From: Nostoc flagelliforme FACHB-838 | GTDB taxonomy: Bacteria > Cyanobacteriota > Cyanobacteriia > Cyanobacteriales > Nostocaceae | Reading direction: 5' to 3' | Assembly: GCF_014698065.1 (NCBI RefSeq) | Contig: NZ_JACJSI010000004.1 | Location: 1 to 64,000, forward strand | DNA: 64,000 bases | In this document: positions 34,390-39,469 of the stretch, one piece after another | How the letters are laid out: the number at the start of each line of letters is the position of its first letter | Numbering within the stretch: the stretch's first letter is position 1 | Position numbers and translations under genes: made by a program | Notes under the pieces: generated by a model | Database searches by the model: none | What the model saw: the letters and a program-made list of their open reading frames with translations, nothing else | What the model was told of the DNA's origin: nothing

Positions 34390-36075
34390 ATGGGACAAGG
34401 TTTTTTGCAAATTGGCTTAACGCTGTGTATTGTCATAGCAATCACTCCACTATTAGGAAGATACATAGCGCGTGTCTTTTTGGGAGAAAGAACACTGCTT
34501 GATTTTTTAATGAACCCCATAGAGCGAAGTATGTTCGTACTAGCAGGTGTTCGCAGGAAAGATGATATGACGGGTTGGCAGTATATTCGATCTGTACTGT
34601 TTAGCAACATCCTCATGGGTATCTCAGTATATTTATTGATATATTTTCAGAGACTCTTACCCTGGAATCCTAACGGCTTTGGTGCGCCCAGATGGGATGT
34701 ATTGCTGCACACAACGATTTCATTTGTAACTAATACTGACCAACAACACTATGCTGGTGAGACAACCTTAAGCTATTTTAGCCAGGTAGCAGCTTTAGGC
34801 TTTTTAATGTTCACCTCCGCAGCCACCGGTTTATCTGTGGGAATTGCCTTTATTCGCGGCTTGACAGGTAGCAGACTAGGTAACTTTTACGTCGACCTTG
34901 TTCGTGGAATTACGCGAATATTGCTGCCGATTTCGGTTATTGGCGCGATCGCTCTGCTTATAACGGGTGTACCACAAACATTAGCTAAGACTCTAGATGT
35001 GAGAACCTTAGAAGGCGGGACGCAATATCTTGCTAGAGGCCCGGTGGCATCATTTGAAATGATCAAACTTTTGGGCGAAAATGGCGGTGGCTTTTTTGGC
35101 GTAAACTCAGCACATCCCTTTGAAAATCCCAATGGCGCTTCTAACTTGATAGAAATGATTGCCATGATTTCTATCCCAGCAGCCTTGATTTATACCTACG
35201 GTATATTTGCCAACAACATCAAACAAGCTTGGCTACTTTTTTGGATGGTGTTTGTGATTTTTGTAGTTCTGGTGGGAATAACAGCCGTAGGAGAACTGCA
35301 AGGTAATCCCCTTGTTAATAACGCCTTTGGATTAGAACAACCCAATTTAGAGGGGAAGGAAGTTCGATTTGGCTGGGCACAAACGGCATTTTGGGCAGTG
35401 ATGACTACTGCTACTATGTCTGGTGCTGTGAACGGGATGCACGATTCTTTGATGCCGCAAGGAATATTTTCGACTCTCTTCAACTTATTTATCCAGGTTA
35501 TCTGGGGTGGTCAAGGAACTGGAACAGCTTACTTATTTATTTACTTAATTCTCACAGTGTTCCTAACTGGACTAATGGCAGGACGCACCCCAGAGTTTTT
35601 AGGACGCAAAATTGAAAAGCGAGAAATCGTCCTTGCCAGCGTGGTGCTATTGATTCACCCAATTCTAGTTTTAATTCCTAGTGCGATCGCCTTAGCTTAT
35701 CCCATCTCCCTATCTGGAATTAGCAACTCTGGCTATCACGGTATTTCTCAAGTAGTTTATGAATACGCCTCAGCAGCAGCAAATAATGGCTCCGGCTTAG
35801 AAGGGTTGAGGGATAACACCCTGTGGTGGAACTTGAGTACTTTGGTTAGTTTAATCGGAGGACGCTACATTCCGATAGTTGCCATTCTGCTGTTAGCTGA
35901 CGGTATGTCTCGCAAACAAAAAGTACAAGAAACTCCTGGTACCCTGAGAACTGATTCTCTGGTATTTACTAGTATCACGGCTGGAGTGACGCTGCTTTTG
36001 GGAGTATTGACTTTCTTTCCCGTTCTGGCTTTAGGCCCCATAGCTGAGGGTTTAAAGCTAACATCTGGCAGTTAG
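34390..36075 (+). CDS. kdpA: Potassium-transporting ATPase subunit KdpA
   Basis: Channel-like, K+-binding subunit of the KdpFABC pump. 561 residues, full length, ~10 membrane helices. Filter-type segments are present: [48 protein letters not shown] and [12 protein letters not shown]. No lesion is visible in this subunit. The next gene, kdpB, starts 345 bases downstream behind repeats, an unusually wide gap for a kdp operon. Confidence 0.95.
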
Positions 36076-36420: not shown

Positions 36421-38526
36421 ATGAATCCAGTGGCAACTAACTCCAAAGCTAGACGCCCAAATTTTCGTTCTGGCGATCGCCGCCAAGTACGTAAAAAGGC
36501 CAGGGCAAGTAATAAATGGCTGTACTTAAGGGCAATTAGAGATGCTTTTGTCAAGCTAAACCCTAAGTATGCAATCAAAAATCCAGTGATGTTTGTGGTT
36601 TGGGTGGGAACAATCATCGTTCTATTGCTAACAATTGATCCCAACCTATTTGGCCCAGCTCTCCAAAAGAACCCGCAACTTTTCAACGGTTTTTTGTCGG
36701 GGATTTTATTCTTTACAGTTTGGTTTGCCAATTTTGCCGAAGCAGTGGCAGAAGGACGGGGTAAAGCTCAAGCCGATGCTTTGCGAGCAACCAAATCAGA
36801 GATGATCGCGAAAAAACTTGCTGCCGATGGCACACTGAGTGAAGTTTCATCTACCAGCCTCAAACAGGGCGATACCATCTACGTTGTTGCTGGCGATATC
36901 ATCCCTGCCGATGGCGAAGTAATCATGGGTGTCGCCTCGGTGGATGAATCGGCAATTACTGGTGAATCCGTACCAGTATTAAAAGAATCAGGCTCCGACG
37001 TTGCTAGTTCCGTTACTGGTGGGACGCGGATTATCTCAGATGAATTAATTATCCGCATCACTAATGACCCCGGCAAAGGCTTTATTGACCGGATGATTGC
37101 CTTGCTAGAAGGGGCAGAACGCAGTAAAACACCCAATGAAATTGCCCTGACAGTATTGTTGGCAGTTCTCAGCTTAGTGTTTTTGTTAGTCGTGGTAACT
37201 CTGCCGGCACTTGCCTACTATGTCAACAGTCCAGTCAGCATCCCAATTTTGATTGCTTTATTAGTAGCATTAATTCCTACAACCATTGGCGGCTTACTAA
37301 GTACCATCGGCATTGCTGGTATGGATCGAGTTGCCCAATTTAACGTCATTGCTACTTCAGGACGAGCAGTCGAAGCCTGTGGTGATGTCAACACTTTAGT
37401 TCTCGATAAGAGAGGTACAATTACCCTCGGCAACCGTTTGGCGGAAGAATTGATTCCCATCAACGGCCATTCAATGTCAGAAATTGCTAATGTTGCCTGG
37501 GCAGCTAGTGTCTTTGACAATACACCAGAAGGTAAATCCATTATCCGATTGGCAGAAAAGTTAGGCGCAAGGTTTGATTTCGACTCCAACCAAGCAGAAG
37601 GAGTTGATTTTTCTGCCAAAACACGGATGAGTGGTACTAACTTACCTGGTGGGTATGAGGCTAGAAAGGGAGCAGTAGAAGCCATTGAAGCATTTGTTCG
37701 TTCCCGCAACGGACGCGATACGCCAGAATTGGATGCTGTGTACGAACAAGTTTCTCGCCTCGGAGGTACACCTTTAGCAGTCAGCCTAGATAATGAAATC
37801 TATGGGATTGTTTATCTCAAAGATATAGTTAAACCTGGTATCCGCGATCGCTTTGAGCAACTGCGACGGATGGGAGTGCGTACCATCATGCTAACTGGAG
37901 ACAATCGAATTACAACTTCTGTTATTGCCCAAGAAGCAGGTGTTGATGACTTCATTGCCGAAGCTACATCAGAAGATAAAATCAGCGTCATTAAGAAGGA
38001 ACAAGCAGCAGGCAAACTAGTTGCCATGACCGGAGATGGAACTAATGATGCTCCCGCATTAGCCCAAGCGAATGTCAGCGTTGCGATGAATACAGGAACG
38101 CAAGCTGCAAAAGAAGCCGCCAACATGGTTGATTTAGACTCCGATCCCACAAAGCTGATCGATATCATTAGCATTGGTAAACAATTGTTGATTACTCGCG
38201 GGGCATTAACAACATTTTCCATCGCTAATGATATTGCTAAATACTTTGCAATTATCCCAGTGATATTTGTCGCTGCTAACCTGCAAAGCTTGAATATTAT
38301 GAATTTAACTAGCCCTAAATCTGCTGTACTATCAGCGCTGATTTATAATGCTTTGATTATTCCCGCTTTGATTCCTTTGGCATTGAAGGGTGTACGGTTT
38401 AGACCGCTGACAGCTAATCAGCTACTCCAACGTAATATTTTAATTTATGGCTTAGGTGGGGTGATTGCGCCGTTTATTGCCATTAAGTTGATAGATGTAC
38501 TGATTACAGTTGTGGGTTTGGCTTAA
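36421..38526 (+). CDS. kdpB: Potassium-transporting ATPase subunit KdpB with altered phosphorylation motif
   Basis: P-type ATPase subunit that drives K+ uptake. 701 residues, full length; [34 protein letters not shown] and the C-terminal membrane helices are all normal. However the near-invariant phosphorylation loop DKTGT reads DKRGT (D329-K330-R331-G332-T333; codons GAT AAG AGA GGT ACA at 37405-37419). One base (ACA to AGA) explains it. The threonine helps bind the phosphorylated aspartate and Mg2+, so an arginine there is expected to block or cripple phosphorylation. A sequencing error is the alternative. With the damage in neighbouring kdp genes, decay is the better reading. Confidence 0.93.
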
Positions 38527-38665
38527 CAACAGCAAAAGTAGAGACGCTGAGAAACGATGGCATCTTGACCAAAGTAAAATAATCAACATTTTTACTTTTA
38601 CCTGTTGAGAAAGGTAACAACAAGAATATGAATAAACATCGTTTTCACTCAGCAATGCTTCGGCA

Positions 38666-38828
38666 ATGCCCTTTGTTTGGTCGCAATGGCGTAAACAACA
38701 ACTACCACTCGCTATTTTTATCCTGCTGTGCTTGAATGTGGTAACTGCCCCAGTTAGTTGTTTATGCTGTTGCTAACAGCGCTCTGGAACGTCGTGCTGG
38801 GTGGGAAAAACAATTAAAAATTAAATAA
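38666..38828 (+). pseudogene. Frameshifted KdpF-like small subunit
   Basis: From the ATG at 38666 the frame reads MPFVWSQWRKQQLPLAIFIL (a basic start and one membrane helix, as in cyanobacterial KdpF/KdpG-type subunits found between kdpB and kdpC) up to TAPV, then hits TAA at 38774. The sequence there is CCAGTTAGTTGTTTAT; removing one AGTT copy restores PVVYAVANSALERRAGWEKQ and a stop at 38826-38828. So a 4-base tandem duplication broke the gene. Even when restored it is short and lacks a second helix. Assignment rests on position and sequence. Confidence 0.6.
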
Positions 38829-38866: not shown

Positions 38867-39469
38867 ATGGCTATTATTCGAGAAACCATCAGAGCAATTT
38901 TCATAACTCTAATGCTTTGGTTGTTGACTGCAATCATCTATCCTTTGATAATCCTTGTAGTGGGTCAAGTTTTTTTGCCCTATCAAGCTAATGGCAGCAT
39001 CATGCTGAATCTAAATAATCAACCAATTGGTTCGGCTTTGATTGGTCAGCTGTTCACATCTGAGCAATATTTCCATCCTCGTATCAGCACTGTTAGATAT
39101 AGCCAAGGGAAAAAAGCCAAGCCAACTGGCATATCTGGAGCCAGCAATCTCGCTGCTAGCAATCCAGAGCTACTAAAGCGAATTTTAGAACAGGCAAATG
39201 AATTGCGAGACGAAAATCTTCAACCGATCGCCGATATAATTTATACCTCCGCTTCTGGTTTAGACCCGCATATTTCCTTGAGAGCAGCACGGCAACAATT
39301 GACGCGGGTTGCTGGTGCGCGGGGGGTAAAAGAAGATGAGATCCTACGTTTAATTAATAAGTATACTGATGGCAGATTTTTATGGACTTTTGGTGAGCCG
39401 GGGGTCAATGTTCTCCGATTGAATTATGCTCTTGACTTGCAAGATTTTAATCGCCAGCAAAATCAGTAA
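38867..39469 (+). CDS. kdpC: Potassium-transporting ATPase subunit KdpC
   Basis: 200 residues, single N-terminal membrane helix (AIFITLMLWLLTAIIYPLII) and periplasmic domain; assists K+ binding and assembly of the Kdp complex. Family motifs: GSALIGQLFTSEQYFHPR, TGISGASNLAASNPELL, SGLDPHISLRAARQQ, GEPGVNVLRLNYALD. Intact. An ATG-containing ORF with KdpD-like ending follows 14 bases later. Confidence 0.93.
   Translation: MAIIRETIRAIFITLMLWLLTAIIYPLIILVVGQVFLPYQANGSIMLNLNNQPIGSALIGQLFTSEQYFHPRISTVRYSQGKKAKPTGISGASNLAASNPELLKRILEQANELRDENLQPIADIIYTSASGLDPHISLRAARQQLTRVAGARGVKEDEILRLINKYTDGRFLWTFGEPGVNVLRLNYALDLQDFNRQQNQ

Follow-up and report, generated by a model that had tools for sequence, protein, structure and literature searches.

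A kdpB gene of Nostoc flagelliforme FACHB-838 encodes a full-length P-type ATPase subunit in which the phosphorylation motif reads DKRGT rather than DKTGT. Does the Kdp complex to which it belongs still pump K+, and if it does not, why are its genes still read whole? The gene lies in a window of 64,000 nucleotides, the whole stretch of DNA that was analysed. We take the host, which carries GCGATCGC repeats and multiple Kdp operons, to be a Nostoc-like cyanobacterium. The window locus is called kdp1 below; kdp1, kdp2 and kdp3 are labels local to this analysis and not the operon names used in Anabaena. In P-type ATPases the aspartyl phosphate forms on the Asp of DKTGT, which is D307 in E. coli KdpB (PMC7535926). 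The cryo-EM model of KdpB puts both Thr309 and Lys499 at the phosphate analogue, Thr309 being at the nucleotide as well (PMC6255902). A literature search found no report of the loss of a catalytic residue in a cyanobacterial KdpB.

Two altered P-domain sites in an otherwise open operon

The operon has the following parts, all on the forward strand:

34390–36075, +: kdpA, 561 residues, open and full length (Pfam PF03814, 751.9 bits, profile positions 2–548 of 548; TIGR00680)
36421–38526, +: kdpB, catalytic P-type ATPase subunit, 701 residues, open and full length, with T331R and P517S (TIGR01497; alignment with E. coli KdpB)
36958–36969, +: segment inside kdpB, read from the sequence and compared across the KdpB rows
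37405–37419, +: phosphorylation motif, DKRGT instead of DKTGT (equivalent to E. coli KdpB D307–T311; R331 corresponds to T309)
37969–37971, +: P517S, motif EATPEDK changed to EATSEDK (counterpart of E. coli P496, three positions ahead of K499)
38663–38804, +: what is left of the kdpF-bearing gene, with its first helix but not the KdpF helix (tblastn with the L096 KdpF protein)
38867–39469, +: kdpC, 200 residues, open and full length (Pfam PF02669, 204.4 bits; NF010607, 324.9 bits)

All four loop segments of KdpA, including GQGTG, were located in the sequence; we take them to be the filter segments. The window KdpB scores 1189.8 bits against the kdpB equivalog model NCBIfam TIGR01497 (cut-off 527.9; profile positions 2–675 of 675) and aligns at 773 bits to the E. 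coli KdpB chains in the PDB. The two proteins can be aligned over residues 28–700 and have the same motif order (E. coli KdpFABC, PDB 6hra, 5mrw and others), with D307, K308, G310 and T311 of E. coli corresponding to D329, K330, G332 and T333 of the window. The TGES and TGDGTNDAP motifs are present, but Arg replaces T309 of DKTGT and Ser replaces P496 of the P-domain motif EATPE.K. The window operon also differs from E. coli KdpFABC in that kdpA and kdpC flank kdpB but no KdpF is encoded, and in that the host has three further Kdp operons. None of kdpA, kdpB and kdpC has the stops, frameshifts or neutral dN/dS of a pseudogene; in this operon only the kdpF-bearing gene has a frameshift.

The change at residue 331 is exactly as first read from the DNA: codons 37405–37419 are GAT AAG AGA GGT ACA, giving D329 K330 R331 G332 T333 in an uninterrupted frame. 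We compared 104 KdpB rows, consisting of the window copy, 37 kdp1 orthologues, 32 kdp2 and 8 kdp3 proteins (3 of the latter encoded by the host itself) and 26 rows from the outgroup. All 103 other rows, 102 of them distinct since outgroup L117 duplicates L089, have DKTGT, with Thr at residue 331 in 37/37 other kdp1, 32/32 kdp2, 8/8 kdp3 and 26/26 outgroup sequences. The alignment of close relatives thus returns Thr in every orthologue (n = 37). Codon 331 is ACA in 33 of the 37, ACG in two, ACC in one and ACT in one, and AGA occurs in the window only, so one C-to-G change explains T331R, as the original prediction had proposed. DKRGT as a lineage trait is rejected, because DKTGT is found in all 37 other orthologues, G020, the nearest relative, among them. 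A mix-up of paralogues or a collapsed repeat is likewise rejected, as the genome's other KdpBs are at most 76–78% alike to the window copy. A pattern scan of 84,980 species found no other DKRGT KdpB; it needed the exact motif context and a second base other than C in the target codon, was blind to residues with C at that position (Ser TCN, Pro, Ala), had no positive control and possibly left out records near the window's genome. Its three matches, none with Arg, were one DKSGT KdpB fragment and two large unrelated Pirellula proteins. DKSGT is seen in a KdpB fragment of an Acidobacteria MAG (L090, 7527–7558), in a short frame of 172 residues.

The rest of KdpB had been described as intact and full length. 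The length and the open frame stand, but P517S breaks a second invariant P-domain motif: column 517 is Pro in 103/103 other rows and Ser in the window only. Compared with G020 and polarised with the other orthologues, the window branch of kdpB carries 4 nonsynonymous (A184V, T331R, P517S and I693V) and 16 synonymous changes, with 6 unresolved; the G020 branch carries 11 and 22. A parallel count of KdpB changes private to the window relative to G020 gave L91F, A184V, T331R and P517S. L91F is absent from 34 orthologues and 6 paralogues, and in the wider set its column varies, with one other Phe. T331R and P517S both arose after the split from G020.

A base-call or assembly error, with ACA as the true codon and a normal pump, would need one wrong base only, and the assembly is split over many contigs (10.84 Mb in 726 contigs, 3.61% estimated contamination). 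Against this, P517S is another invariant site hit within the same gene, and kdp1 is a single locus on a contig of 179,745 bases. Window-only changes in kdpABC number 8 compared with 13 found only in G020 (1317 columns), which is no excess; these three genes are the only ones found in all four comparison stretches. Among the 42 window frames tested, the 10 neighbouring genes with a G020 counterpart align over at least 99% of their length and thus give no sign of frequent indels; the frames left of about 20 kb have no counterpart in the stretches fetched. Genome-wide sloppy sequence is not supported, the comparison of window-only changes covering the three kdp genes. Two invariant-site changes in one gene would fit relaxed selection better than a stray error, and we consider an error possible but improbable.

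Weaker constraint on kdp1 across the genus

The genome holds three other KdpBs with 76–78% identity to the window copy, all with DKTGT, in operons that each include KdpA, KdpF and KdpC; the check for a second kdp operon that had been proposed thus turned up three. Two of these, the kdp3 operons L084 and L085 (G000:C245 and G000:C308), match at 96.5% over a length of 4.9 kb, and their contigs measure 5.5–6.8 kb; the operon may have been duplicated recently, or the assembly may include another strain. Short KdpA pieces lie just past two kdp3 operons (G000:C245:6574–6714 and C308:5201–5332), and a frame of 267 residues at G000:C218:6216–6971 matches the first half of KdpA. In three other genomes (L139 in G010, L141 in G027 and L145 in G004) the kdp2 operon is followed downstream by an extra kdpA-like frame, 56–59% alike to the window KdpA, which runs off the stretch that was fetched; possibly these frames belong to tandem kdp operons. 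No KdpD match was found on the window's contig. One lies at the end of C167, and C78 begins with the part that complements it; a contig break probably splits a single gene here.

Several kdp operons per genome are likewise described for Anabaena and other filamentous cyanobacteria with kdp1 and kdp2 (PMC5716572, PMC4060947). In cyanobacteria with two kdp operons, one only responds to K+ limitation (PMC5716572), and in the Anabaena-type operons one only responds to K+ limitation, osmolarity or desiccation (PMC5716572, PMC4060947). These papers (PMC5716572, PMC4060947) deal with expression and not with lost catalytic residues, and their kdp1 need not be the orthologue of the window locus.

Across the genus selection holds kdp1 less tightly than kdp2, and the difference is largest in the catalytic P domain. 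At 268 columns that are invariant in the outgroup rows, and in the same 32 genomes, kdp1 KdpB has 81 changes and kdp2 KdpB has 7; genome by genome (n = 32) kdp1 has more changes in 26, as many in 6 and fewer in none. For kdpB, dN/dS averages 0.101 in the kdp1 copies and 0.055 in the kdp2 copies. The kdp1:kdp2 ratio of dN/dS, from 27 to 32 genomes in pairs that are not independent, is 1.83 for kdpB as a whole, 3.09 for the P domain, 2.91 for TM3–4 and 1.19 for the N domain, compared to 1.36 for kdpA and 1.46 for kdpC. With alternative columns defined from kdp2 and kdp3, outgroup KdpBs deviate more (means of 17.8 with KdpF and 30.2 without) than kdp1 does (10.7). Part of the contrast therefore comes from kdp2: it may be exceptionally conserved, with kdp1 not exceptionally loose.

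All 38 kdp1 KdpB frames are open, and 31 of the 38 keep all five motif positions, which implies that catalysis is the rule in kdp1. At the same five positions altered catalytic motifs occur in 7/38 kdp1, 0/32 kdp2 and 0/8 kdp3 proteins:

Window: DKRGT, EATSE
G024 (L072) and G031 (L079): TRES
G017 (L077): TKES
G010: TGDATNDAL
G020 and G015: TGDGTNDAL

Fisher tests give 0.013 against kdp2 and 0.0048 against kdp2 plus kdp3, values that are descriptive only, since the five positions were chosen after seeing the data and the sequences are related. The motif changes need at least six origins on the tree, where G017 and G031 are sisters, and all lie on tips or on one tip pair; deep branches of this tree are weak and the outgroup rows do not form one group. 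P545L, shared by G020, G010 and G015, may be mild. The sister pair G017/G031, with altered TGES, has a dN/dS of 0.062 in kdpA and 0.201 in kdpB. In G006 (L068) kdpC is gone from the kdp1 locus and unrelated genes follow kdpB. Beyond kdp1, motif variation is seen in one kdp2 row (TPEGRS) and two outgroup rows (one IGES, one TGET). The TKES and TRES motifs of L077, L079 and L072, which stand in place of TGES, adjoin the serine that inhibits E. coli KdpB when it is phosphorylated.

KdpF is missing from kdp1 and kept as an orphan gene

Damage elsewhere in the operon had also been proposed, and it is there: what lies between kdpB and kdpC is a frameshifted gene remnant that has no KdpF helix. The L096 KdpF protein matches it in two tblastn fragments (38663–38755 and 38757–38804), with the frame shifting by one at about 38756. 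A profile of the KdpF helix scores 5.9 bits at the remnant compared to at least 52 in kdp2 and kdp3; it was built from kdp2, kdp3 and the 12 outgroup rows that it scores high, so that only its low kdp1 scores are informative. No match to PF09604 was found on the window contig C334; the identity of the helix with PF09604 was checked on one kdp2 protein and the outgroup L096 protein. In 32/32 kdp2 and 8/8 kdp3 operons the gene at this place has a KdpF helix at its end. In kdp1 the helix is absent from all 36 loci that reach far enough, a count that leaves out L056 and L066, which end 199 and 113 bases past kdpB. The loss is not special to the genus: the helix is present in 12 of the 26 outgroup rows, including the nearest, L096, with an intact gene. 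The other 14 have no helix in the sequence covered, which for one of them, L106, stops shortly past kdpB.

A kdp2 KdpB is missing from six of the genomes compared (G000, which is the window's genome, G020, G017, G023, G029 and G031), and each of the six carries a kdp2-type kdpF outside its kdp3 operon. Judged by the kdp1 tree and by flanking sequence held in common, kdp2 would have been lost about four times. All six orphan kdpF frames are open (L179, L182, L184, L192, L193 and L194); that of the window genome, L179, lies on contig C29 (G000:C29:5956–6027). In G000, G020, G029 and G031 there is no piece of kdpA, kdpB or kdpC within about 1.5 kb of the orphan, while in G017 and G023 it adjoins kdp2 kdpB pieces, and in G023 also kdpC pieces. 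G002, G009 and G025, in which kdp2 is present, have one KdpF each. The pN/pS of kdpF is 0.22 over the 6 orphan copies, compared with 0.17 for the 31 copies within operons that the motif picked up, but as this is mostly shared history it is weak proof of continued selection.

One simple reading of an orphan kdpF retained after the loss of kdp2 is that the kdp1 complex, having no KdpF of its own, also uses the one from kdp2, which hints that kdp1 may still be in use; alternatively, a short gene may have been retained by chance, or KdpF may have a role of its own. A fuller version of this idea is that kdp1 encodes a KdpABC complex borrowing KdpF in trans from kdp2. In a few species, including the window's, it would have been retained without normal catalysis (DKRGT, TRES/TKES, TGDA) and with KdpA constrained, as a pump-derived, non-pumping complex. 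Such borrowing would explain both the absence of KdpF from kdp1 and the orphan kdpF in six genomes without kdp2 KdpB. As a whole we judge this proposal to be distinctly unlikely.

A spare pump that has probably lost catalysis

The reading that we favour, with a probability of roughly 0.64, is that the window kdp1 is a redundant pump, probably inactive here, under recurrent missense erosion. T331R removes the threonine at +2 of the phosphorylation motif, and P517S the proline just before the phosphate-site lysine. Arg331 would be expected to prevent formation or turnover of the aspartyl phosphate, so that KdpABC1 would no longer pump K+. The loss would be tolerated because the three further Kdp operons have DKTGT and each encodes a KdpF, and the same redundancy would allow the different catalytic-motif changes in kdp1 of other species. 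A known parallel is the human Na,K-ATPase variant ATP1A2 T376M, found in familial hemiplegic migraine, which affects the same DKTGT threonine; the protein is expressed but has no pump activity. It differs from the window in being a disease variant of another pump, with Met rather than Arg (PMC4914835).

A dying pump, as first proposed, remains the best-supported reading, given two changed invariant P-domain sites, the kdpF remnant, the weaker genus-wide constraint and three other operons. The proposal needs amending in that T331R is not the sole lesion of KdpB, the erosion is genus-wide rather than private to the window, and a long period of free drift is not seen. Simple decay is opposed by the 38 open frames, the kdp1 KdpB dN/dS of about 0.10 and the 4:16 ratio on the window branch; inactivation in the window is therefore recent, or something is still preserved. 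If the latter, KdpABC1 might be kept for a non-pumping role, as a gated K+ path, scaffold or sensor, in which frames are conserved while catalytic residues may change. The open frames and low dN/dS agree with such a role, as do a relaxation that peaks in the KdpB P domain and is milder in kdpA and kdpC, the tight kdpA and looser kdpB of G017/G031, and the kdpF kept where kdp2 was lost. However, most kdp1 KdpBs keep all five motif positions, G006 has no kdpC at the locus, no fixed replacement residue is common to the genus, and the motif changes are confined to tips and a single pair of tips, the pattern of recent loss; we regard this role as unlikely.

The purifying selection on the rest of the operon could be taken to mean that the pump works despite DKRGT, with P517S or another change compensating. 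T331R and P517S do fall on the same short branch, and a change of the last Thr of DKTGT in ATP7A was judged a partial loss (PMC3489546). Yet the species scan returned no other DKRGT KdpB, Met at the same position abolishes pumping in ATP1A2 (PMC4914835), and P517S would be a change at an invariant site in its own right and not a known compensator, making a working pump highly improbable. On the sequence evidence, kdp1 of the window looks like a spare pump worn by point mutations while its genes still read whole.

Together with its relatives, the locus provides a natural panel of KdpB catalytic-site variants (DKRGT, EATSE, TRES/TKES, TGDA and NDAL) in operons that are otherwise intact, with close relatives as controls. 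Such a panel lets one study at what stage, and for what reason, a duplicated ion pump gives up its catalytic engine, and it raises the question of whether a Kdp complex can use a KdpF subunit encoded elsewhere. It also carries a warning for annotation, as curated models score such genes high as kdpB even where catalysis is probably gone.
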